DNA of 64,000 nt from Bacillus sp. es.036 (GTDB lineage: Bacteria; Bacillota; Bacilli; Bacillales; Guptibacillaceae). Positions 31,631-49,705 of the stretch are shown here, piece by piece. The stretch lies in assembly GCF_002563635.1 (NCBI RefSeq), contig NZ_PDIZ01000001.1, positions 124,001 through 188,000 of the forward strand, written 5' to 3'. The notes below the pieces were generated by a model. That model searched no databases. It saw only the letters and a program-made list of their open reading frames with translations, and was not told the origin of the DNA. A program made the position numbers and the translations under genes. Position 1 is the first letter of the stretch. Each line of letters starts with the position of its first letter.

Positions 31631-31676
31631 GCAGGAAAAAAGGAGAAGATCGGGAATTTCTTAATGAAAGGTGACT

Positions 31677-32402
31677 ATGGAAGGAATGAGGAAGTTGAAG
31701 CAAATTATCGCGATGGGTGGCGGAGGTTTTTCAATGGAACCCGACAACCCGCTATTGGATCGCTATATCTTAAAGCAAGCTATCAGCAAGCAACCGAAAA
31801 TCTGTTTTATCCCGACTGCTAGCGGTGATGCAGATGGATACATAACAAAATTCTATACCTTTTTTGAGAAGCAGATATGCGTGCCGTCTCATCTCTCCTT
31901 ATTTAAACCACATGTGAAAGATATCGAAGGCTTCTTGTTAAGTCAGGATATTCTGTATGTAGGGGGAGGAAACACAAAAAATCTTCTCGTCCTCTGGAAA
32001 GAATGGGGACTTGATCAAGTAATGAGGAAAGCATGGGAGCAAGGCATTGTTTCAGCCGGAATAAGCGCAGGGGCGATCTGCTGGTTTGAAGAAGGGGTCA
32101 CGGATTCATTTGGAGATGAGCTTCACGCGCTGGATTGTCTTGGCTTTCTACCAGGGAGTAGCTGTCCTCACTTTGATGGAGAAGAGAAGCGACGATCTGC
32201 CTATCATGATTTGATTGATTCAGGTCACTTGCAACCAGGAATAGCGCTCGACGATGGAGCAGCTGTTCATTATGTGGACGATTCGATGAAGGTGGTCGTA
32301 AGTTCACGAAAAGAAGCGTATGCCTATAAAGTTGAGAGACTGCAGGTGGGTGAAGAGCGGTTGAAGACAGTTTATCTCGGAAATGAAAAGGAGAATACAT
32401 AA
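31677..32402 (+). CDS. Peptidase E-like (S51 family) hydrolase
   Basis: A 241-aa protein of the S51 family (dipeptidase E/cyanophycinase fold). The catalytic serine is in SAGISAGAICWF (about residues 122-133), the nucleophile-elbow SAG of this family. FIPTASGDADGY, ILYVGGGNTKNLLVLW and SSCPHFDGE are further conserved blocks. Dipeptidase E cleaves Asp-X dipeptides. ATG 31677 follows GAAAGGTGA. A kinase-like gene starts two bases after its stop, so they form a transcription unit. Confidence 0.88.
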   Translation: MEGMRKLKQIIAMGGGGFSMEPDNPLLDRYILKQAISKQPKICFIPTASGDADGYITKFYTFFEKQICVPSHLSLFKPHVKDIEGFLLSQDILYVGGGNTKNLLVLWKEWGLDQVMRKAWEQGIVSAGISAGAICWFEEGVTDSFGDELHALDCLGFLPGSSCPHFDGEEKRRSAYHDLIDSGHLQPGIALDDGAAVHYVDDSMKVVVSSRKEAYAYKVERLQVGEERLKTVYLGNEKENT

Positions 32403-38578: not shown

Positions 38579-40612
38579 TTAACGGCTTTTGTTGTGTAAC
38601 TTAAGCTGAGCTAAATACTGCTCGCCTTCCAATGTAATTTGTGTTCCTGTACGTCCACGTCCTTTTACAATATACCCCTTGTTTTCCAGATCGTTTAATC
38701 GCAGTCTGATTTGCTGAGGAGAGAGAGGGTGAGATAAAGTAGCGCTTTCTTTAGAAAGTAAATCTCGACTTGCTGTTTTGCCTTCATCATTTCGGTCTTT
38801 CATGATCTGCAAGATGACGTAATGATCCTTCGCATCGATGCTACTTACTGGAAGTGTCGCTGGCTTCTCGTTCATTGGTTCTAAGCGATGATGAGGGAGG
38901 TCATCAAGTGTAATCGTAGAGCCGCCTGAGACCACAAGCGCGTAATCAATCATGCTTTTCAGCTCGCGAATATTTCCTGGCCAATGATGAGCCATAAACG
39001 CTTCAATCACTTGTTGGTCCACTTTCATCCACGTGCCGCTTTTTGTAACAAAATAGTTTGTGAGTGATTGAATGTCGCTCAAACGTTCACGAAGTGGAGG
39101 GATCGCAAGTTGAAGGACATTTAATCGGTAAAATAAATCCGAGCGAAACGTACCTTCTGTAATTTTTTGTTCAAGTTTTTTATTTGTAGCGGCAATGACT
39201 CTTACATTAATCGGCGTAATTTTTCTACCACCAATCCTTCTAATTTCTTTTTCCTGAAGAACGCGCAGTAAGTGGGCTTGGACCGTTGGACTAATATCAC
39301 CAATCTCATCGAGGAAAATCGTTCCGTTATCTGCAAGCTCAAATAGTCCTTTCTTTCCACCGCGCTGAGCTCCTGTAAATGTGCCTTCCTCATACCCAAA
39401 TAATTCACTCTCTAAAAGACTTTCCGTCAAAGCGCTACAATTAATCGCGATAAACGGTCCGTTTTTTCGAAGAGAGTTACGGTGAATCGCATGCGCGAAA
39501 AGTTCTTTACCAACGCCTGTTTCTCCGTTAATCAAAACAGGGTGCTCAGCGATGGCGAGCTTTTTTGCGATACGAACGCGTTCAAGAAGGAGGGGGTGCT
39601 CACCAAGAATATCTTCGAAGTCATATTTTGCAGCGAATCCTTTCTTGTGCTGCTCTCGCTGTGCCGTTTTTTCAATTTCAAACGCCTGGTTGACGCTCTT
39701 AAAAGTAACAACTGTGGTATGTTCCTCTGGGATTGATTGACGAAAGGCGACAACATCTACCCCGTTCATTGAAACGAATTTATTTTCCTCTAATCCATTA
39801 ATGATAAAATCTTGAAGATCGGTATCCACTACATATGAAAGATCACGACCAATGACAGCTTTGGCGGGCATCTGGAAGAGTGCCTCAAGTCGGTGGTTAA
39901 ACAAGGTAATCTCTCTTTCTTTATTGATGGCTAGAATACCATCATCGACGGTATTAACGACATTTTGATAATGTTCTGTTGTTTGAAGCGCCTCTTTCTC
40001 AGCACCAAGAATCTTGCGGTGTAAGACGATCATACTTCGAATGTAGCGCTCGGAAACTTTGGAAGAAACGGAATCGTCCAGTTGAAAATAATCCATTACT
40101 TTAATAATCGTCGCCATATCAAAAGGTCTTACTCCGATATCAATGATTTGAGGAATATAAGATGGGCATAAGTGCGTTTCGCCAGGAGAAACGGCTACGT
40201 GAATATTGTCGTAAAACATTTGTCCTCGTTTAAATGGAAGAAACGTCACGTGGTTAATGCCAAGTTGGTAGAGTGATTCAATAACATCAACTGTGGACGG
40301 ATCGTCATCATTCACCATTAAGACTCTTTCGCCATGCGGAATCGTAAGGAGACGATCGATATAGTCATGGCGAATGGTTCGTTTGCCTACAATGGATTCT
40401 TTTCCTGAGATGTTACTTATCGTAGCAGCTTCCGTTTTAGTTGCTTCGGAAGAATACAAGATAACGTGATCTTCAAGTTGATGTGGTAACGATTCGTCAA
40501 TCGCAAAAGCTCTTACGACGATGTAATCGCCGGCCAACTGATGCAATTGATCATAGAGTACTTTTTTCGTTTGGGTACTTCCGGCAATTAGCGTTAAGGT
40601 AGGTCGCTCCAA
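38579..40612 (-). CDS. Sigma-54-dependent transcriptional activator (PAS-AAA+-wHTH)
   Basis: About 677 aa. An N-terminal sensor of unfamiliar type (about residues 1-190) has VGKRTIRHDYIDRLLTIPHG. A PAS-like segment (about 210-310) contains VVNTVDDGILAINKEREITL. The AAA+ domain has Walker A INGETGVGKELFA, the sigma-54-contacting loop EEGTFTGAQRGG and Walker B GTIFLDEIGDIS. The C-terminus is a winged-helix type (LSPQQIRLRLNDLENKGYIV) instead of the usual Fis-type HTH. The start is probably TTG 40612; GTG 40621 is an alternative. It is divergent from a sigma-54-promoted YfcC-iadA operon, which it presumably activates. Confidence 0.92.
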   Translation of the reverse strand: MERPTLTLIAGSTQTKKVLYDQLHQLAGDYIVVRAFAIDESLPHQLEDHVILYSSEATKTEAATISNISGKESIVGKRTIRHDYIDRLLTIPHGERVLMVNDDDPSTVDVIESLYQLGINHVTFLPFKRGQMFYDNIHVAVSPGETHLCPSYIPQIIDIGVRPFDMATIIKVMDYFQLDDSVSSKVSERYIRSMIVLHRKILGAEKEALQTTEHYQNVVNTVDDGILAINKEREITLFNHRLEALFQMPAKAVIGRDLSYVVDTDLQDFIINGLEENKFVSMNGVDVVAFRQSIPEEHTTVVTFKSVNQAFEIEKTAQREQHKKGFAAKYDFEDILGEHPLLLERVRIAKKLAIAEHPVLINGETGVGKELFAHAIHRNSLRKNGPFIAINCSALTESLLESELFGYEEGTFTGAQRGGKKGLFELADNGTIFLDEIGDISPTVQAHLLRVLQEKEIRRIGGRKITPINVRVIAATNKKLEQKITEGTFRSDLFYRLNVLQLAIPPLRERLSDIQSLTNYFVTKSGTWMKVDQQVIEAFMAHHWPGNIRELKSMIDYALVVSGGSTITLDDLPHHRLEPMNEKPATLPVSSIDAKDHYVILQIMKDRNDEGKTASRDLLSKESATLSHPLSPQQIRLRLNDLENKGYIVKGRGRTGTQITLEGEQYLAQLKLHNKSR

Positions 40613-40724
40613 GTGGTTCACATCTTTTCTATTTTTGGTTTTATTGTAACACCGATAAGAACTTAAAAGAACCAATTCCGATCTTTATTTAATGATTTTT
40701 CGGACAATTCATATCTTCATCAAG

Positions 40725-40740
40725 TTGGCATGAAACTTGC
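40725..40740 (+). promoter_or_regulatory. Sigma-54 (-24/-12) promoter of yfcC-iadA
   Basis: TTGGCATGAAACTTGC has GG and GC exactly ten bases apart and fits TTGGCAC-N4-TTGC with one mismatch. It lies 49 bp before the YfcC ATG. The same element recurs before the cyanophycinase gene. Confidence 0.85.
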
Positions 40741-40788
40741 TTCTCTATAGAGTAGGTAATGATGATTAAATCGGAAAGAAGGGGAAGT

Positions 40789-42300
40789 ATGGAACAAGAA
40801 AAGAGAAAAAAAGAAATGAAGATGCCTCATACGTTTGTGATTGTATTTTTTGTCGTACTTGCTGCTGCTGCTTTAACGTACTTTATTCCAAAAGGAACGT
40901 TTGAAACGGAGGATGTAACGTATGTACAGCAGGGAGAGGAGCAAACGAAAACGGTTCTTGTCCCGGACAGTTTCAAGTATGTAACGGACGATGGTGGAGA
41001 TGCGGTCCGAGAAGGGGTTTCACTATTTGAGCCTTATGGTGGTGCGGGTTTTCTTAATTATGTGTTCGAAGGGCTAGTATCAGGAGATAAATGGGGATCT
41101 GCTGTAGGTGTTGTCGCTTTTATCTTAATTATTGGTGGTGCATTTGGGATCATCATGCGCACAAAGGCGATTGATCAAGGAATTCTCTCCATTATTGATA
41201 AAACAAAGGGTCGAGAAGTGCTTATTATTCCGATTATGTTCTTTTTATTTTCGCTTGGTGGGGCAGTTTTTGGTATGGGGGAAGAGGCGATTGCCTTTGC
41301 GATGATACTCATACCACTTGTCGTAGCTCTCGGGTATGACGCTATTACAGGGGTAATGATAACGTATGTTGCAACACAAATTGGATTTGCCACTTCGTGG
41401 ATGAACCCGTTTAGCGTAGCGATTGCTCAGGGAGTATCCGGCATTCCAGTTTTGTCAGGGTCACCATTCCGAATGGTAATGTGGGGAGTTTTTACGATTA
41501 TAGGTATTGCGTACACAATGTGGTATGCGAATGGTGTTCGTAAGGATCCAAGGAAATCGCTTAGTACAGATGCGAATCGCTACTTTAGGGAGTACAATCA
41601 GAATCAAGACCTAGCTACCAAATTTACGCTTGGCCATGGACTTGTTGTCCTCACCCTTGTAGCAGGAATTGGCTGGATTATATGGGGTGTTATTGAACAT
41701 GCTTATTACATTCCGGAGATTGCAACACAGTTCTTTACAATTGGGATCATTGCTGGTGTGATTGCTGTGATCTTTAAGTTAAATGGCATGACAGTAAATG
41801 ATATTGCAGAGGGCTTTACAGACGGTGCAAAAGATTTGCTTCCGGCCGCGTTAATCGTTGGGATGGCCAAAGGAATTGTGATTATTCTTGGTGGCGATGC
41901 TGCTGGTGAACCTTCTGTATTAAATACAATGTTATATAGTGCAGGAAATTTAGTTGATGATTTTCCAGCTGCGCTATCAGCGTGGTTTATGTTTGTCTTC
42001 CAGTCTGTCTTTAATTTCTTTGTCGTTTCTGGAAGTGGGCAAGCGGCCCTCACAATGCCTCTTATGGCCCCACTCTCTGATATTGCAGGGGTTACGCGTC
42101 AGGTTGCTGTTCTAGCTTTCCAGCTAGGGGACGGACTGACAAACATTATTGTTCCTACATCAGCGGCGCTAATGGGTACACTTGGTGCAGCTAGAATGGA
42201 TTGGGGTACGTGGTTTAAATTTATTATTAAGTTTCAAATTGTGCTGTTTGTTCTCGCGTCTGTCTTTGTGATTACAGCTTCGCTCATGAACTTCCAGTAA
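40789..42300 (+). CDS. YfcC-family membrane transporter
   Basis: A 503-aa membrane protein of the YfcC/ArcD-like carrier family, with about 12 hydrophobic segments. The N-terminal helix HTFVIVFFVVLAAAALTYFI is followed by an extracellular loop, and SGSGQAALTMPLMAPLSDIA (about residues 406-425) is a family hallmark. Members are linked to uptake of basic amino acids, peptides or dicarboxylates. As first gene of an operon with isoaspartyl dipeptidase behind a sigma-54 promoter, I infer import of beta-aspartyl dipeptides. ATG 40789 follows AAGGGGAAG. Confidence 0.88.
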   Translation: MEQEKRKKEMKMPHTFVIVFFVVLAAAALTYFIPKGTFETEDVTYVQQGEEQTKTVLVPDSFKYVTDDGGDAVREGVSLFEPYGGAGFLNYVFEGLVSGDKWGSAVGVVAFILIIGGAFGIIMRTKAIDQGILSIIDKTKGREVLIIPIMFFLFSLGGAVFGMGEEAIAFAMILIPLVVALGYDAITGVMITYVATQIGFATSWMNPFSVAIAQGVSGIPVLSGSPFRMVMWGVFTIIGIAYTMWYANGVRKDPRKSLSTDANRYFREYNQNQDLATKFTLGHGLVVLTLVAGIGWIIWGVIEHAYYIPEIATQFFTIGIIAGVIAVIFKLNGMTVNDIAEGFTDGAKDLLPAALIVGMAKGIVIILGGDAAGEPSVLNTMLYSAGNLVDDFPAALSAWFMFVFQSVFNFFVVSGSGQAALTMPLMAPLSDIAGVTRQVAVLAFQLGDGLTNIIVPTSAALMGTLGAARMDWGTWFKFIIKFQIVLFVLASVFVITASLMNFQ

Positions 42301-42321
42301 CAACCGTTTGGAGGAAAGACA

Positions 42322-43488
42322 ATGTTTACAGTCATAAGAAATGCCGAGATTTATGCGCCGGATCATATAGGTAAGAAAGATATGCTAATCGCGTTTGATA
42401 AAATCGCGATGATTGAGGATCAAATTAAACTACCTGATTCGATTCCACATGAAGTAATCGATGCGATTGGGAAGATGATCTTTCCGGGATTCATTGACTC
42501 TCACGTTCACATTACAGGTGGTGGCGGTGAAGGAAGTTATCGAACAAGGACACCGGAATTAACGTTATCGAAAGCGACGAGTGCTGGGGTAACGACGATT
42601 GTTGGAGTGATTGGAACAGATGGCACAACACGTACAATGCCTGACCTCATTGCAAAAGCGCGAGGACTAGAAGAAGAAGGCATTACGTGCTATGTGCATA
42701 CAGGAAGTTATCAAGTACCGGTAAAAACGTTAACTGGAAAAATTGAGGATGACATTATCCTGATTGATCGCGTGATCGGAGCGGGAGAGATTGCGATTAG
42801 TGATCATCGCTCTTCTCAGCCAACGGTAGAAGAAATGGCCAAGATCGCTTCGGCTGCAAGAATTGGTGGAATGCTTTCTGGAAAAGCGGGCATCGTCAAT
42901 ATTCATCTTGGGGACAGTCCGTCTAAACTATCGCTCCTTGAGCAAGTGGTGGAGACGACGGATATCCCGATTAAGACGTTTCACCCAACGCATATCAATC
43001 GGACAGAAGAACTTTTCGAAGCCGGGGTCGCCTATGCGAAAAAAGGTGGGAACATTGATTTCACGACAAGTACCATTCCTCAATTTCTTGAAGAAGGCGA
43101 AGTGAAATGCAGTACGGGGTTGAAGCGTGCTCTTGAGGCTGGTGTTCCCGTTGAGCGGATTACGTTTACATCAGACGGACAAGCAAGTTTACCTGCTTTT
43201 AATGCTTCAGGTGAGTTTGAAGGGCTACAGATCGGTTCTGTGGCTTCACTTTATAAAGAAGTGCGAGATGCTATTGTTGAAGATGGCGTACCGATTTCGG
43301 ATGCGATTAAAGTGATAACGAAAAATCCGGCATCGCTATTGAAGTTAAGTCAAAAAGGTGAGATTGCGGTGGAGAAAGATGCGGACCTTGTGATCGTAGA
43401 CTCGGATTTTCAGATTGATACTGTTTTTGCGAGAGGACGGAAGATGGTTGAAGCACAAGAGTGTCTTGTAAAAGGAACATTTGAATAG
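42322..43488 (+). CDS. iadA: Isoaspartyl dipeptidase (beta-aspartyl peptidase)
   Basis: A 388-aa amidohydrolase that splits beta-aspartyl dipeptides. Metal ligands appear as HxH in FIDSHVHITGG (about residues 59-69), His in NIHLGD and FHPTHINR, and the catalytic Asp in ITFTSDGQAS (about 280-289). GGGGEGSYRTRTPEL is the IadA substrate loop. It starts 21 bp after yfcC with GGAGGAAAG and ends at a strong terminator. The enzyme is also known to act on beta-Asp-Arg from cyanophycin. Confidence 0.95.
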   Translation: MFTVIRNAEIYAPDHIGKKDMLIAFDKIAMIEDQIKLPDSIPHEVIDAIGKMIFPGFIDSHVHITGGGGEGSYRTRTPELTLSKATSAGVTTIVGVIGTDGTTRTMPDLIAKARGLEEEGITCYVHTGSYQVPVKTLTGKIEDDIILIDRVIGAGEIAISDHRSSQPTVEEMAKIASAARIGGMLSGKAGIVNIHLGDSPSKLSLLEQVVETTDIPIKTFHPTHINRTEELFEAGVAYAKKGGNIDFTTSTIPQFLEEGEVKCSTGLKRALEAGVPVERITFTSDGQASLPAFNASGEFEGLQIGSVASLYKEVRDAIVEDGVPISDAIKVITKNPASLLKLSQKGEIAVEKDADLVIVDSDFQIDTVFARGRKMVEAQECLVKGTFE

Positions 43489-43501
43489 AATCGGAACGAA
43501 G

Positions 43502-43533
43502 CGATCCCCCTCATTTCTAAGTGAGGGGGATCG
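43502..43533. terminator. Terminator of yfcC-iadA
   Basis: CGATCCCCCTCA pairs with TGAGGGGGATCG, then TTT; also faces the convergent DUF2202 gene. Confidence 0.85.
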
Positions 43534-43538
43534 TTTAT

Positions 43539-44057
43539 TCATTGATACTGACTTAAGCCTTGCTTGAATGCAGCCAGATGGTTTTTTGAAGCGTCTCCAA
43601 GCCTGACCATGACGGATTGTACATCCTGCGGCAGATCAGGCAAATTAGCTAATTTTTGGTACATGGCAATGTTATCAATTTCTCCTTGTACGCCAGCTTC
43701 GAACGCTTCTTTGAGCGTTTTTGGTGTTGTTGTATACTGACTAGCCTTATTTTCTGGAACGCTAATGTTGTACCTTGTAAATAAGGGAAGAAGTGCAGTG
43801 ATGTGCCTTTGTTCTGCCACTTTTATTTGCGTAAAGGGTCTAATCTCGCCATATTCTTTAATAATGTCATCGTATCGCGCCTGAGCGAGGTATTCATCTT
43901 CCAATGCATAAGTTAATGCTTCTTCAAGCGTAATAGAAGAGTCTTGTAATGCTCCTTTTGCACCGTAGTTTTCTGGAAGTGCTTCTGCCTTGACTTCAAG
44001 AAGATTGAAGTTGAAGAAAATAAAGCTGATGATCGCAACAATCGCAACTTTTTTCAC
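43539..44057 (-). CDS. DUF2202 ferritin-like secreted protein
   Basis: About 172 aa. An N-terminal signal peptide (KKVAIVAIISFIFFNFNLL, cleavage near VKA-EA) is followed by a DUF2202 ferritin-like helical bundle. EDEYLAQARYDDIIKEYG and VAEQRHITALLPLF carry the Glu and ExxH-type di-iron positions, and GEIDNIAMYQKL and ASKNHLAAF the second pair. Probably an extracellular metal-binding protein; role unknown. The start is probably GTG 44057 after AAGGTGAG; longer starts lack a good RBS and would bury the signal. Confidence 0.85.
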   Translation of the reverse strand: MKKVAIVAIISFIFFNFNLLEVKAEALPENYGAKGALQDSSITLEEALTYALEDEYLAQARYDDIIKEYGEIRPFTQIKVAEQRHITALLPLFTRYNISVPENKASQYTTTPKTLKEAFEAGVQGEIDNIAMYQKLANLPDLPQDVQSVMVRLGDASKNHLAAFKQGLSQYQ

Positions 44058-44209
44058 TTTACTCACCTTGCCTTTTTGTTGATTAACCTTCCTATAAAGG
44101 TGGAGTTTTATGTAATTTTTATCAGTCGAAGTCATTTTGTTTGATTTCCCTTTAAGAACAGCTTATGATCTTAACTGTAAAGTTCATAATTACAGTAGGA
44201 GGAACAGTC

Positions 44210-44875
44210 ATGAGCAAACGTATATTAATGGTTGTTACAACCGCAGATACAATGAATGAAGGACATAAAACAGGTTTATGGTTATCGGAGTTTGGGGAAG
44301 CGTATGTCGAATTTGAAAAGCGTGGTTATCAAATCACAGTGGCAAGTCCTCTTGGCGGAAAAGCGCCTGTTGATGAACGGAGTCTTGAAGGTGGAGAAAC
44401 ACCTCAAAAAATTCTAGATACTGCGAAATACCTTGAAGATACAGAGAAGCTAGAAAAAATTGTTGGTGCATCTACTTTTGATGCGATCTTTATGCCTGGT
44501 GGACATGGCACAATGTTCGATCTTCCAGAAAATGATAAGCTCCAGCACTTGATTCGTGAATTTTATGAGTCCAACAAAATTGTTGCTTCTGTCTGCCATG
44601 GTCCTGCTGGGCTTGTTGGTGTTACTCTCTCTGATGGTACGCCATTAGTTTCAGGTAAAACAATGACGGCGTTCACAGACGATGAAGAAAGAGAGACAAC
44701 TCTTGATCAATTCATGCCTTTCTTGCTTGAATCACGCCTTCGTTTACTAGGTGCCAATGTTGTGACGAAAGAGAACTGGGCTGAGCATATGCAGATTGAT
44801 GGAAATTTAATTACTGGTCAAAATCCTCAATCTACCACAATGGTTGCAAAGGAAGTTACAAAAAAACTAAGTTAA
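44210..44875 (+). CDS. DJ-1/PfpI-type glutamine amidotransferase-like protein (Hsp31/glyoxalase III-like)
   Basis: A 221-aa protein with the nucleophile-elbow Cys in IVASVCHGPAGLVG (about residues 126-139), a family Glu near GLWLSEFGEAY, and IFMPGGHGTMFDLPEN. Hsp31-type members detoxify methylglyoxal or act as stress chaperones. ATG 44210 lies behind GTAGGAGG. Monocistronic, with its own terminator. Confidence 0.9.
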   Translation: MSKRILMVVTTADTMNEGHKTGLWLSEFGEAYVEFEKRGYQITVASPLGGKAPVDERSLEGGETPQKILDTAKYLEDTEKLEKIVGASTFDAIFMPGGHGTMFDLPENDKLQHLIREFYESNKIVASVCHGPAGLVGVTLSDGTPLVSGKTMTAFTDDEERETTLDQFMPFLLESRLRLLGANVVTKENWAEHMQIDGNLITGQNPQSTTMVAKEVTKKLS

Positions 44876-44900
44876 CTTATTAATGATTAGCAAGATAAGC

Positions 44901-44929
44901 GAAAAGGACTCCAATATGGAGTCCTTTTC
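44901..44929. terminator. Terminator of the DJ-1/PfpI-type gene
   Basis: GAAAAGGACTCC pairs with GGAGTCCTTTTC around AATAT. Confidence 0.85.
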
Positions 44930-44939
44930 GTATTTATTC

Positions 44940-45221
44940 TTACTCTTTCTCTTTTTTCTTTCCAAATACTTTTTTAGATGCGCCTTTCATAATATTTGAA
45001 GCCGTATCCACTGACTTTCCAACTACTTTATTCCCTGTTTTACTTACATTTTTGACAAAGTCAGTGGAAGCATCAGCGGCTTTACCAACAAGGCCACCTT
45101 CTCCGCTTACTGACTTTACAATATCGTTCGCTGTGTCAGCGGATTTATTCACAAGATCACTTGCGGCTTTAGATGTCTTCTTTACGAGGTTTTCTTCCTT
45201 CGTTGAATTTTTTTCAGACAT
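44940..45221 (-). CDS. Repeat-built amphipathic protein (LEA-like), unknown function
   Basis: A 93-aa lysine-rich protein without Cys, Trp, Tyr or His. Three near-repeats of about 22 residues are visible: KSADTANDIVKSVS, KAADASTDFVKNVS and KSVDTASNIMKGAS, preceded by a shorter KTSKAASDLVN. They predict an amphipathic helix like LEA/desiccation or lipid-binding proteins. GGAGGGG precedes the ATG. Function inferred only from composition. Confidence 0.7.
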   Translation of the reverse strand: MSEKNSTKEENLVKKTSKAASDLVNKSADTANDIVKSVSGEGGLVGKAADASTDFVKNVSKTGNKVVGKSVDTASNIMKGASKKVFGKKKEKE

Positions 45222-45333
45222 CGCAATCCCCTCCCTAAGCGAATTTGATACATCTCTATGCTTATGAAATGGATTGTTCGAATATGTAATGGATTTTTCA
45301 GATAGGAGTTATTTAGGAGCGAAAAAAAGAAAT

Positions 45334-45356
45334 AAACCCGCATATGCTGCGGGTTT
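45334..45356 (-). terminator. Terminator of the MBL-fold gene
   Basis: AAACCCGCA pairs with TGCGGGTTT; on the minus strand a T-rich tract follows. Confidence 0.75.
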
Positions 45357-45361
45357 GTGCT

Positions 45362-46120
45362 TTAAAATGACAGGGTTTGACCGTCGTCAGGAATGAGAAC
45401 TTTATTAAGAAGATCTTTTTCTTTGATGAATTGCTTTAATTCGTCCCGTGTTAACAGACAGTGATTGAGTGACTCCATATGCACGGCAATGATCGTTGCA
45501 TCTGGCGCTTCTTGATACGTTTGCACGACGTTTTCTTTTGTCATTGTAATGGGACCACCTTCAAGAAATTGGGCAGCACCAGCATTCACTACAATGATTT
45601 CTGGTTTATGTTTCTGAATCGCTTCTTGAACATCTTCGTTGAAAAGAGTATCTCCAGCAATATAAACGGTTTTTTCATTTGGATGTGAAAATGATAGTCC
45701 GGATACTTTTCCCGTCTGCTTTAAAATTTCACCTGCTCCGTGCTTCCCGTCTGTACGTGATATAGTAACATCTGCAAAAGAGGATTCTATCTCAAGGGAA
45801 ACGACGTTTGGAAAACCTTCTTCTTTTATCACTTCGACATCTTCTTGGTTTTGCGCATAGATCAGGATCTCTTTTGGAAGAACCTGTTTCGCTTTCTCGT
45901 CAAAGTGGTCAGGATGCAGGTGAGTGACGATCACTGCGTCAACATCAACGATTTCATTGATTGATGTTGGTAAATCGACAGTAGGGTTTGAAAGGTGCTG
46001 GTTTGCTGTGTTTGGGAAAGGCGGCATTGCTCCTTTATCAGATAGGAATGGATCAATTAGAAATTTTTTATCAGCATAATGAAGAACGATTGTTGCGTTA
46101 CGAACAAATTGAATTTTCAT
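45362..46120 (-). CDS. MBL-fold metal-dependent hydrolase (UlaG-like)
   Basis: A 252-aa protein with the metallo-beta-lactamase motif VIVTHLHPDHFDEKA (about residues 64-78), a second His region TDGKHGAG, Asp in VYIAGDTLF and the closing AVHMESLNHCLL. The UlaG-like subgroup hydrolyses lactones or phosphodiesters; the substrate is unknown. An AGGAGG-type RBS lies just before the ATG. Single gene. Confidence 0.9.
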   Translation of the reverse strand: MKIQFVRNATIVLHYADKKFLIDPFLSDKGAMPPFPNTANQHLSNPTVDLPTSINEIVDVDAVIVTHLHPDHFDEKAKQVLPKEILIYAQNQEDVEVIKEEGFPNVVSLEIESSFADVTISRTDGKHGAGEILKQTGKVSGLSFSHPNEKTVYIAGDTLFNEDVQEAIQKHKPEIIVVNAGAAQFLEGGPITMTKENVVQTYQEAPDATIIAVHMESLNHCLLTRDELKQFIKEKDLLNKVLIPDDGQTLSF

Positions 46121-46239
46121 TGTATCTTCCTCCTTTTGATCTGGGTCTCTTATAGGATAATATAGATGTGGACAAGGAATACATAGATGAATTCAAGTCT
46201 TTAAGATAAGATACTTGAATTGTGAAAGGAGTTGATGGA

Positions 46240-46692
46240 ATGATCGATCAAACGGACCTACGGATTATTAAAGAATTAACGAAGAACGGTCGCATCACAA
46301 TGAAAGAGCTTGGTGAAAAAGTTCATTTAACGGGTCAGGCCGCTTCATCTCGAGTGTTGAGATTAGAAGAAGAAGGTATTATAGAAGGTTACTCAATTAA
46401 AGTAGATAAGTCGAAAATGGGTTACGCTGTGCACTGTTTTCTGACGATCTACACCCGAAACATTCCTCACACCACATATCTTTCTTATATCAAGACAAAA
46501 GAAGAATATGTTCTCAAAAACTATAAAATCAGTGGTGATGGATGTTATTTGCTAGAATGTCGTTTTCCTTCCAATAAAGAACTTGATGAATTTCTTGTTC
46601 AATTAAATGAGCACGTGAATTATAAACTGTCGATTGTGATTAACGAAGCAGCCGCTAGTCTTGATAATCTCCAAATTAAATGGAAACATTAA
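46240..46692 (+). CDS. Lrp/AsnC-family transcriptional regulator
   Basis: A 150-aa protein with the N-terminal HTH IIKELTKNGRITMKELGEKV..LTGQAASSRVLRLEEEGII and a C-terminal ligand-binding (RAM) domain. Family members sense amino acids. ATG 46240 follows AAAGGAG by eight bases; an upstream GTG precedes that RBS. Its target is not evident; the DUF2254 gene follows on the same strand. Confidence 0.92.
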   Translation: MIDQTDLRIIKELTKNGRITMKELGEKVHLTGQAASSRVLRLEEEGIIEGYSIKVDKSKMGYAVHCFLTIYTRNIPHTTYLSYIKTKEEYVLKNYKISGDGCYLLECRFPSNKELDEFLVQLNEHVNYKLSIVINEAAASLDNLQIKWKH

Positions 46693-46763
46693 AAAAAGGT
46701 TTGTTTACTTCTTTCCAGGGTAGTAAGAAGAAGTATTTAAAACTTTGAGGAACGGTGGCTACT

Positions 46764-48170
46764 ATGGGGTTCATTTACTATATAAAGAAATATTTAAAAA
46801 TGTCGAGGCGACAGCGGAAAAGCGAATTGAACTCAACCATTTGGTTTATGCCGTTTTGGTATATTGTTGGAGCGATCGCTCTTTCTGCTTTTACCTATTA
46901 TCTCGATTATGTGGTGGATGTTAGCTTATATTTACCGATCGGGATCGGTTTCAGTGGACAGACACTGCAGGTGCTTCTAAGTGCACTCGTTGGAGGGGTG
47001 CTAACGTTAAGTGCCTTTACACTTAACTCTTTGCTCGTCGCACTCACGACGTTTAGCGGTCAGTTCTCTTCCAAAATGCTAGTAAACTTCGTCAGTGACC
47101 GGGCAACCCAACACGTACTTGGTATCTTTAATGGAAGTTTTATTTATGTACTCTTAAACTTTTTATATGTGACACATGGGGAAGAGGAATACGTTGTTGC
47201 GACACCGGTATTATCCATTCTGACAGCTATTACAGCTGCGGTAACCTTTATTTATTTTATCAACCATACAGCAACCTGGATGCAAGTTCATAACATCAGT
47301 TTTAATATGAATGTTAAGTCGAAATCCGTGCAGGCTTCCCTAGAAAAAGAATTAAACTCTTACCATCTTGAGAAGGAAGTGGAAAGTGAATCTCTTCCTC
47401 TTGAGTCTGATGGAAAGGTAATGAAAACAAGTCAATCTGGTTATTTTCAAGTCGCTGACTTTGCGAAACTTATTAAACAAGCGAATAAAGACAACTGCCT
47501 TTTAAGGTTTGATGTTAGAATTGGCGAATTTGTAGTAGAAGGAACGCCGCTACTTACTTATTGGGAATATGGACAAAGCATAAATCCTGAACGCTACGTT
47601 AAGTCTATTGAGATCGGAGTAAAACGTACAGAAATTCAAGATTTGGAGTATGGATTAATGAAGCTTGCCGAAGTAGCGATCAAGGCTTTAGGCCATAATG
47701 ACCCGCTTACGGTTACGAATACAATTCATCAAATTGCTGATTTGTTGAAAAGCATTGGACAGTCTACGAACTTTTCTCCCTATCTTTTCGATCAGGAAGA
47801 GGAGCTTCGCGTTATCTTAAATCAAAAGAATTTTCCTTATTACCTTCATAAGGGATTCGCATCTATTCGTGAGTATGCAAATCAAAATTCTACAGTGATG
47901 ACGGAGCTTTTAACGATGATCTCCCTTCTAAGTAAAACGTTGGATAAGGATGTACACGAAGATCTATGGGAATTTGCCCGCCAGACGATTTTAGGATTTG
48001 ATAACTATAGTCTGTATGAAAATGATTGTTTGTATATTTTAGAGCAACTGTCCGATCTTGCTAAAAACACAGGCAATCAGGAGGATTATCTTTTCTTGCT
48101 TGAATATATGCTCCAGAGAGTTAGTTCAAAGAGTGCCTCTAAGGTGCTGAATAATCCTAATAAGGAATAA
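46764..48170 (+). CDS. DUF2254 membrane protein
   Basis: About 468 aa. Four hydrophobic segments in the first 180 residues include LLSALVGGVLTLSAFTLNSLLVALTTFSGQFSSKML, the DUF2254 signature. A large cytosolic C-terminal part follows (ADFAKLIKQANKDNCLLRFD, GHNDPLTVTNTIHQIADLL). Function unknown. GTG 46755 and ATG 46764 are both possible starts relative to TGAGG. Confidence 0.85.
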   Translation: MGFIYYIKKYLKMSRRQRKSELNSTIWFMPFWYIVGAIALSAFTYYLDYVVDVSLYLPIGIGFSGQTLQVLLSALVGGVLTLSAFTLNSLLVALTTFSGQFSSKMLVNFVSDRATQHVLGIFNGSFIYVLLNFLYVTHGEEEYVVATPVLSILTAITAAVTFIYFINHTATWMQVHNISFNMNVKSKSVQASLEKELNSYHLEKEVESESLPLESDGKVMKTSQSGYFQVADFAKLIKQANKDNCLLRFDVRIGEFVVEGTPLLTYWEYGQSINPERYVKSIEIGVKRTEIQDLEYGLMKLAEVAIKALGHNDPLTVTNTIHQIADLLKSIGQSTNFSPYLFDQEEELRVILNQKNFPYYLHKGFASIREYANQNSTVMTELLTMISLLSKTLDKDVHEDLWEFARQTILGFDNYSLYENDCLYILEQLSDLAKNTGNQEDYLFLLEYMLQRVSSKSASKVLNNPNKE

Positions 48171-48209
48171 CCATAGGCTATTTTAGCAATATGGCGGTAA
48201 CATACATGA

Positions 48210-48245
48210 TGAGCATTTTCCTATAAGGAATTTGCTCATTTTTTA
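48210..48245 (+). terminator. Terminator of the DUF2254 gene
   Basis: TGAGCA..TTCC pairs with GGAA..TGCTCA, followed by TTTTTT. Confidence 0.75.
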
Positions 48246-48322
48246 GGTTGTTTTTGGGTCGGTTAAACAACCAGATAAACGTGACCAAAAGAAACTGGCC
48301 TTTACATTACGGTGTTCCTCAG

Positions 48323-48338
48323 TTGGAATGAAACTTGC
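48323..48338 (+). promoter_or_regulatory. Sigma-54 (-24/-12) promoter of the cyanophycinase gene
   Basis: TTGGAATGAAACTTGC differs from the yfcC promoter by a single base (A for C at position 5). GG and GC are ten bases apart. Transcription should start near 48350. Confidence 0.82.
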
Positions 48339-48376
48339 ATAATAGTTTGATAACAATGAAAAAGGGAGTGTGGAAG

Positions 48377-49705
48377 TTGGGAAAATGGAAGCATGTTATC
48401 GCTGTTACAGCAATGCTCGCAGTTTGTATGGTGTTAGTCATCCTAGGGAAGCAGTTGGAAACGAATGCCACTGGCGCAAATGAAACAAAAGGATCACTGG
48501 TAATAGTAGGAGGGGCTTTAAGCCCGGATAATGAAGAAGTATATGACTCGTTTCTTTCATTAGGGATGGATTATCGAAACAAGACAAAGGATAAATTGAA
48601 AATTGGCATTATGCCAACTGCCAGTGCAACGCCAATAGAAAGTGCATCTTCTTACAAAGCAGACTTCGTACGCTATGGTGTTAGTGAGGAGAATATTGAT
48701 ATTCTACCTATTGCTGTAAGTGATGATCCGTCTACAGAAGAAGATGAATCGAAGTGGAATGATGGTGCATACAATGAAGATCTTGCTGACAAAGTGAAGA
48801 AGTATGATGCAATTTGGTTTGTAGGGGGGAATCAGTTAGATTATACGAAGACTCTTATAAATGATGGGGAGGACACTCCTGTCTTAGCTTCAATCAGAGA
48901 GACCTATCAAGATGGTGCCGTTTTAGGTGGTTCTAGTGCTGGGGCAGCGATTATGAGTGATCCGATGATTGGCGCAGGGACAAGCTCTGGTGCGCTAAAT
49001 GAAGGGGTCACCTATGAAGATAACTATGGTGATGCTGATGACAATCGCGTTTTCCTTACACAAGGGCTTGGTTTCTTTGAGGGGGGTACGGTTGATCAGC
49101 ACTTTGTGAAGCGTGGCCGCTTTGGGCGACTAATCGTTGGGGCATGGGATGCTGGTAACGAAATGGGCTACGGTATTGACGAAAACAGTGCAATGATTGT
49201 TCATAATGACGATCAATCAATTGAAGTTGTTGGAGAAAGTGGGCTTGTCGTCGTTGATCTTTCTAATGCTAAGAAAACAACAGATTTTCCGACGGCGATG
49301 AAAGATGTGAACATTAGCTACATTGAAAAAGGAGATCGGTATTTCTGGGAATCAAAAACGTATGAGATCAACGAGGACAAACCGCTTATCGAACTACCTT
49401 ATTATCCGGAAAGCGCTACGAATACAGGGATTTTTGGTGAAGATGCACTAAAACAAGTTCTTACGTATGATCTCGTTGATAGTGACTCCAATGAAGCGAT
49501 CGGCCTCGCTTATGAACTGACTGGCGACAAGAGAGGAGAAGGGTTTAAGCTTGTCTTCTCAGAAACGAGACAAACGAAAGGGTACTGGGGGAAAATCAAC
49601 GGCGAAGAATCTTATGCGGCGATTAACGTTTCCCTTGATGTAACACCAATGAAAGTGAAGTTAAAAATCGATAAAGTAAATGAAAAGAAAATGGAAAAAT
49701 TTTAG
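48377..49705 (+). CDS. Secreted cyanophycinase-like S51 peptidase (CphE type)
   Basis: About 442 aa. An N-terminal membrane/signal segment (VIAVTAMLAVCMVLVILG) implies export. The peptidase domain has LVIVGGALSPDNEEVY, IMPTASATP, AIWFVGGNQLDYTKTL and the catalytic serine in VLGGSSAGAAIM, followed by VDQHFVKRGRFGRL, all standard for cyanophycinases. These release beta-Asp-Arg dipeptides from the storage polymer cyanophycin. The extra C-terminal 130 residues have no recognised motif. The start is probably TTG 48377 after AAGGGAG: ATG 48356 would leave only about 6 nt of leader after the sigma-54 start site. Confidence 0.9.
   Translation: MGKWKHVIAVTAMLAVCMVLVILGKQLETNATGANETKGSLVIVGGALSPDNEEVYDSFLSLGMDYRNKTKDKLKIGIMPTASATPIESASSYKADFVRYGVSEENIDILPIAVSDDPSTEEDESKWNDGAYNEDLADKVKKYDAIWFVGGNQLDYTKTLINDGEDTPVLASIRETYQDGAVLGGSSAGAAIMSDPMIGAGTSSGALNEGVTYEDNYGDADDNRVFLTQGLGFFEGGTVDQHFVKRGRFGRLIVGAWDAGNEMGYGIDENSAMIVHNDDQSIEVVGESGLVVVDLSNAKKTTDFPTAMKDVNISYIEKGDRYFWESKTYEINEDKPLIELPYYPESATNTGIFGEDALKQVLTYDLVDSDSNEAIGLAYELTGDKRGEGFKLVFSETRQTKGYWGKINGEESYAAINVSLDVTPMKVKLKIDKVNEKKMEKF

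Follow-up and report, generated by a model that had tools for sequence, protein, structure and literature searches.

The 64,000-nucleotide window considered here (Bacillus sp. es.036, contig NZ_PDIZ01000001.1, positions 124,001 to 188,000 of the forward strand) holds what is probably a two-promoter regulon for scavenging cyanophycin, in which one activator governs two transcription units. The genes concerned encode a sigma-54 activator (bacterial enhancer-binding protein, bEBP), a YfcC-type carrier together with the isoaspartyl dipeptidase IadA, and a cyanophycinase-like peptidase of family S51. Read from sequence, the case for a regulon is strong. The activator encoded beside the carrier gene would bind TTGGKT/AMCCAA sites about 50–90 nt upstream of both −24/−12 promoters, sense a beta-aspartyl dipeptide as its presumed inducer and then drive sigma-54 polymerase at carrier-iadA and at the exported cyanophycinase. 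The secreted S51 enzyme would cut extracellular cyanophycin to beta-Asp-Arg, the carrier would import this dipeptide and IadA would split it into Asp and Arg as a supply of nitrogen and carbon. An earlier note on this DNA had already proposed the use of cyanophycin or beta-aspartyl peptides, and conserved genes, promoters and CphB residues largely support this reading; its range left out the activator gene and the palindromes described below were not mentioned.

The two −24/−12 elements seen in the earlier note are indeed nearly identical and lie upstream of the two units on the same strand (Table 1). With at most three mismatches two sites were found in the window against 1.98 expected by chance, a number that by itself carries no significance there. 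The whole genome (4.34 Mb) contains three exact sites, two of them in the window, and two more with one mismatch; at most two mismatches give 16 sites, compared with nine for the reversed pattern. It is conservation that settles the matter: in the nine gene-holding genomes among 14 of the genus S51 is preceded by the element in 9/9 and the carrier in 9/9, and both elements are therefore regarded as real. In these genomes it sits 52–55 nt before the S51 start used, and in G010 S51 follows iadA after only about 175 bp yet retains its own −24/−12 element. Transcription of both units would be expected to depend on sigma-54 (sigL), the gene of which (rpoN) is present in the genome (TIGR02395, 429.9 bits, cut-off 277).

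From the likeness of the two promoters the earlier note had argued for co-regulation. This argument is weak, because three further near-identical sites adjoin other genes (named by reading): one lies 3′ of a sigma-54 activator gene, one between a sigma-54 activator gene and an arginase/agmatinase-type gene, and one 5′ of an ornithine aminotransferase-like gene. Since these are equally alike, promoter likeness was rejected as proof. Co-regulation as such gains support from the adjoining activator and from a palindrome, TTGGKT-N8-10-AMCCAA, which is common to both promoters and lies upstream of them.

Throughout the genus this palindrome is found 68–69 nt before the S51 box and 89–91 nt before the carrier box, a difference of about two helical turns. 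Of the genus S51 promoters, 8/9 have a right-hand half-site at −54 or −55. In 8/9 carrier promoters one lies between −54 and −56, as a second half-site further downstream. Palindrome and promoter combined match twice in the source genome, both times at the promoters in question (reversed control 0). With a pattern one position looser (MMCC for MACC) there are exactly two matches in each of the nine genomes and none in the other five (reversed control 0/14). The possibility that two unrelated sigma-54 units with separate activators have boxes alike merely by nearness to the consensus, to which the three other near-identical boxes beside other genes would lend some weight, appears highly improbable: palindromes at those three promoters are no better than chance (matched by 90, 189 and 187 of 200 shuffles), the combination occurs at these two sites only in the genome, and within the genus it is confined to gene-holding genomes. 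By eye, the inner sequence of the carrier promoter is also similar to an extended −10 for the activator gene on the opposite strand, which would suggest self-repression.

Table 1 Genes, promoters and candidate operator sites of the proposed regulon (window coordinates)
Feature	Position	Strand	Remarks
Sigma-54 activator (bEBP) gene	38579..40612	−	about 677 aa; start codon picked by eye; divergent to carrier gene
Palindrome TTGGTT-N9-CACCGA of carrier promoter	40635..40655	+	90 nt before −24 box; additional half-site at about 40670
−24/−12 promoter TTGGCATGAAACTTGC of carrier-iadA unit	40725..40740	+	pattern match, kept in genus
Carrier gene, YfcC-type, DcuC family	40759..42300	+	PF03606 2.1e-127; NF008611 783.4 bits, cut-off 500
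iadA, isoaspartyl dipeptidase	42322..43488	+	TIGR01975 579.1 bits, cut-off 331.25
Palindrome TTGGGTCGGTTAAACAACCAG of S51 promoter	48254..48274	+	69 nt before −24 box
−24/−12 promoter TTGGAATGAAACTTGC of S51 gene	48323..48338	+	pattern match, kept in genus
S51 peptidase, CphE-like cyanophycinase, 442 aa	48377..49705	+	TIGR02069 168.7 bits, cut-off 126.6

The carrier, dipeptidase and S51 assignments of the earlier note hold, each family model being above its cut-off. IadA matches nine PDB sequences at E ≤ 1e-20, every one of which is named isoaspartyl dipeptidase (best 6.4e-109). The S51 reading frame as called mechanically starts at 48335, inside the promoter; a TTG at 48377, behind AAGGGAGTG (by eye), is the likely start and is preferred because space then remains for promoter and ribosome site.

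S51, IadA, carrier and activator are all matched in the same 9/14 genus genomes and none of the four in the other five (S51 E ≤ 0.001, full-length IadA E ≤ 1e-90, carrier E ≤ 1e-100, activator E ≤ 1e-150; weak amidohydrolase matches to IadA, present in every genome, were left out of the count). The association of the three genes with the −24/−12 element, on which the earlier note had made its reading depend, is conserved within the genus and also in many other Bacillota. Among 101 searched genomes a long S51 (open frame of at least 429 aa, a division set after the table was seen) occurs in 18. The activator (E ≤ 1e-150) is found in 18/18 of these versus 7/83 others (Fisher 1.3e-14) and full-length IadA in 17/18 versus 22/83 (Fisher 8.6e-8); the genomes are related and the trials not independent.

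All of the seven activator genomes without a long S51 have IadA, so that dipeptide use may be the core of the regulon and the cyanophycinase an extension. The same observation favours a regulon for isoaspartyl (beta-aspartyl) peptides in general (fragments of damaged proteins, peptides of the medium), in which S51 widens the supply and cyanophycin is one source among others, and so does the promiscuity of IadA (PMC10206079). Such a general regulon is unlikely, given that the S51 protein retains the catalytic and substrate residues of CphB, scores above the cut-off of TIGR02069 and shares the regulator site in 9/9 genus genomes. Recycling of the cell's own cyanophycin, from storage or a spore matrix, was proposed for Bacillus horikoshii 20a, a species with cyanophycinase and IadA (PMC5532821). 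For the present genus it is hardly credible: cphA1 is above cut-off in 0/14 genus genomes, and the three genomes above cut-off among the 101 carry only a short S51 match (open frame 265–282 aa), each beside cphA1. Weak matches to the cphA1 model exist in all 101 genomes and in all 14 control genomes, and the cut-off alone separates them (3/101 and 1/14). Own storage was rejected on the absence of cphA1, which makes scavenging the likelier function.

Beyond the genus, named genomes were scanned with an S51 alignment and 77 loci were kept (best 80 of 492 confirmed), so that the set is biased towards close relatives of the window S51. From record titles and taxonomy we take them to be 68 Bacillota, eight Gammaproteobacteria and one Thermotogota. 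A strict −24/−12 element within 350 nt upstream of S51 is present in 37/68 Bacillota loci versus 12/867 other open reading frames (ORFs) of the same loci, S51, carrier and activator ORFs being excluded from this control. Divergent to the activator it is found in 27/68, and 54/68 have at least one of the two promoters. Of 34 loci without a nearby activator gene, 27 have an own promoter before S51, and the 34 loci with a nearby activator include 10 with an own S51 promoter and 27 with the activator-divergent one.

Half-sites at −110 to −30 were detected in 18/19 non-redundant non-genus S51 promoters (1000 shuffles: mean 5.45, maximum 13) and in 10/17 non-genus activator-divergent promoters (1000 shuffles: mean 3.27, maximum 8), compared with 2/14 other −24/−12 sites of the same loci, both in L131 and one of them the L131 carrier promoter. 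AACCAA is the commonest 6-mer of the S51 promoter set (15/19); in the activator-divergent set (9/17) it stands behind A-rich words. The 31 right-hand half-sites form clusters near −44, −54 and −64 with a period of 10.6 bp (vector 0.82, a strength reached in 0/2000 random sets). The 24 left-hand half-sites cluster too, at a best period of 8.9 bp, and helical phasing is clear for the right-hand half-sites only.

Several locus layouts exist beside related activators. In the compact one, for instance in Cytobacillus (L109), Psychrobacillus (L112) and Neobacillus (L114), the activator is divergent to carrier, iadA and S51 in a row; in the split one (L103-L105, L107) S51 is separated from carrier-iadA and has a promoter of its own, as in the window. 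In five Brevibacillus loci and in G018 the places occupied elsewhere by carrier and IadA, between activator and S51, are taken by a peptide-type ABC transporter and an asparaginase-II-family protein (in the Brevibacillus locus L160 the available stretch begins past the place of the activator). The Pfam assignments are those of one asparaginase-II protein (L160, PF06089) and one solute-binding protein (L181, family 5), the others being assigned by BLAST clusters. That a peptide-type ABC transporter replaces the carrier and another amidase-like enzyme replaces IadA argues for a dipeptide as the putative cargo of the carrier, and the Brevibacillus asparaginase-II-family protein is a candidate for an unrecognised isoaspartyl dipeptidase. 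An asparaginase-II-family protein between such a transporter and S51 was noticed in L150, L155, L159, L160, L161 and L181. In G078 an aspartate ammonia-lyase gene follows 3′ of iadA, as expected if Asp is released. Carrier (50–57% identity), IadA and S51 occur together in 7/8 Gammaproteobacteria loci, without the activator; the same seven loci have a TonB-receptor-type gene upstream (by cluster, Pfam on one).

The S51 protein matches the PDB cyanophycinases 7uqv (6.8e-22) and 3en0 (1.7e-13). In CphB, Ser132 and six substrate residues are reported as critical (PMC3235067). All of them are retained, Gln101, Ser132, Asp172, Gln173, Arg178, Arg180 and Arg183 of CphB corresponding to Q153, S187, D240, Q241, R246, R248 and R251 of the window enzyme. 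The catalytic triad is S187, H242 and E269, with His and Glu placed via the spacing in CphEal (D222, H224, E251; PMC3235067). On the conserved residues and the gene context cyanophycin is the likely substrate, and the N-terminal segment, hydrophobic by eye, indicates that the enzyme is probably exported. Other aspartyl compounds are the substrates of certain S51 peptidases (PMC9239234). A different substrate, e.g. another Asp-rich peptide or a peptide-nucleotide, is nevertheless very unlikely: the residues of the CphB substrate pocket are retained, the best PDB matches are cyanophycinases, and the S51 protein of the window that is nearer to PepE, though far under the PepE family cut-off, is a second one at 31671-32402 (+).

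Some variants of the family were noted in addition. There are 43 S51 proteins of more than 600 aa (e.g. L147:10001-12514), and in many Bacillaceae two S51 domains are joined in one protein of about 840 aa. Both motifs could be located in 41/43 of the long proteins, where domain 1 has Arg and domain 2 Lys at the position of CphB Arg178. Several clusters have a divergent second S51 type (a cluster of 13 loci), e.g. L156:9641-10666 and L182:11876-12940, the two that were tested and that match the cyanophycinase model under its cut-off. On a plasmid of the haloarchaeon Natronosalvus (NZ_CP101160.1, 248582-249838) there is a gene for an S51 protein whose identity to the window enzyme is 39% across 95% of the latter.

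The activator is probably the regulator of both units, as its position and the shared palindrome suggest. It consists of an N-terminal domain of about 208 aa, a PAS domain (1e-8), the AAA+ sigma-54 interaction domain (PF00158, 1.6e-66) and a C-terminal part. For the N-terminal domain Pfam (0.072) and a PDB profile search (a single match, 0.87) gave chance-level matches only. Domain and profile searches revealed no DNA-binding end of Fis type in the activator; the C-terminal part has weak matches, winged-helix domains among them, and the PDB profile search with this domain gave 19 weak matches, the best to ribosomal eS19 (0.0042) and those to transcription regulators weaker. At the GAFTGA loop of the AAA+ domain the sequence reads GTFTGA in the genus, L082 and L083, and GAFTGA, GSFTGA or GAFSGA in the other aligned rows. 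A relative of the activator was seen on the Priestia megaterium plasmid pBM-Cp-1-1 (L185, 8000-12809) beside aspA and a gene annotated as cyanophycinase; its start is in a different frame from the remainder, and it is absent from the listed genes.

Several points weigh against the proposed cyanophycin regulon or limit its reach. Support is computational throughout. The motif was derived from the genus promoters and matches there by construction, since the pattern was taken from them, which does not hold for the absence of other matches. Taken singly the palindromes are modest: 0–14 of 200 shuffles are as good for S51 (the window's own 1) and 1–36 of 200 for the carrier (the window's own 15), and at several promoters outside the genus (G082 both, G094, G100, G065 and G097) shuffles do as well as the whole palindrome. 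The half-site tests outside the genus are independent of the origin of the motif, but these genomes, too, are related. When the half-site is narrowed to TTGGTT/AACCAA, the counts drop to 14/19 for S51 (shuffle mean 3.20, maximum 11) and to 8/17 for the activator-divergent promoters (shuffle mean 1.92, maximum 7). By the strict pattern 14/68 Bacillota loci have neither promoter (L109, L116, L117, L118, L121, L128, L131, L132, L140, L145, L160, L167, L168, L171); among them, a −24/−12 element precedes the carrier in L131 and L171, and in L145 one precedes an S51-like gene adjoining S51. The carriers of many non-genus clusters are only 30–35% identical, and the one tested (353.7 bits) is under the YfcC cut-off of 500. 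The more distant activators, which are putative orthologues, are 42–46% identical, those beside the ABC type 29–34% over the N-terminal domain. Finally, 7/25 activator genomes are without a long S51, and beta-Asp-Arg is not the only substrate of the IadA enzymes of cyanophycin clusters (PMC10206079).

In the surroundings of the two units a gene for a small DUF2202 protein (43539-44135, −) lies between carrier-iadA and S51. A DJ-1/PfpI-type gene (44165-44875) is near S51 in the genus and directly 3′ of S51 in Metabacillus and Peribacillus loci (L163, L165). A chemoreceptor-type gene is located 3′ of S51 in four Clostridia-type loci (L116, L118, L168, L171); the L118 protein, the one tested by Pfam, has a family-3 amino-acid-binding domain, as if the cells swim to the product.

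Scavenging clusters are known (PMC10206079), and the same paper calls the isoaspartyl dipeptidase undiscovered in Firmicutes. No report of a regulator or operator for cyanophycin scavenging, nor of sigma-54 together with isoaspartyl dipeptidase in Bacill-, was found in open-licence PMC papers. In that collection cyanophycin with sigma54 matched merely papers on Flavobacterium psychrophilum and on biosensors, and cyanophycinase and YfcC are not named among the matches listed. Two sigma-54 studies (PMC12316311, PMC4428206) contain no word starting with cyanophyc or aspartyl, 'isoaspartyl' lying outside that check. If true, the proposal would show how cyanophycin scavenging is controlled in Gram-positive heterotrophs and which protein is the likely importer. 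YfcC, so far a vague name for a carrier ('putative basic amino acid antiporter' in NCBIfam), would become a dipeptide transporter that can be tested, and some Firmicutes would gain a candidate for a missing isoaspartyl dipeptidase. New genomes can be searched for the regulon by sequence, since its operator is both short and patterned. More tentatively, and as a possibility on which we would not yet rely, the activators may form an undescribed sigma-54 family with a new sensory domain for beta-aspartyl dipeptides, governing the use of cyanophycin and such dipeptides across Bacillota via a helically phased TTGGKT/AMCCAA operator. In this wider proposal YfcC-type DcuC carriers would be beta-aspartyl dipeptide importers and the Brevibacillus stand-in for IadA an isoaspartyl dipeptidase.

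Sigma-54 catabolic regulons of Bacillus (RocR, BkdR and AcoR type) combine a dedicated activator with −24/−12 promoters in amino-acid catabolism, and the present regulon is like them in these respects. It differs by the lack of a detected Fis-type end, by an N-terminal domain without known relatives and by the TTGGKT/AMCCAA operator. PrdR (NF041552), the best NCBIfam match of the activator, is alike over the PAS and AAA+ parts, but the score of 355 bits is far under the cut-off of 795 and membership was rejected. The cyanophycin utilization locus (Ben Hania et al., via PMC10206079) and the Flammeovirga cluster have the same set of cyanophycinase, iadA and transporter without cphA1. Here, too, these three are clustered and cphA1 is absent, with 4,888 bp from iadA to the S51 start, within the 5-kb rule of PMC10206079; in contrast to that locus, for which the available text describes no regulator, the window has two promoters with other genes between them and one operator type common to both, besides the gene of a sigma-54 activator. 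CphE from Pseudomonas and from Bacillus megaterium BAC19, the latter a known secreted cyanophycinase of a Bacillus, is likewise a secreted S51 enzyme with GxSxG motif and a triad with His and Glu (PMC3235067). As in CphB, the catalytic His of the window enzyme is preceded by Gln, whereas CphEal has Thr at this position (PMC3235067).

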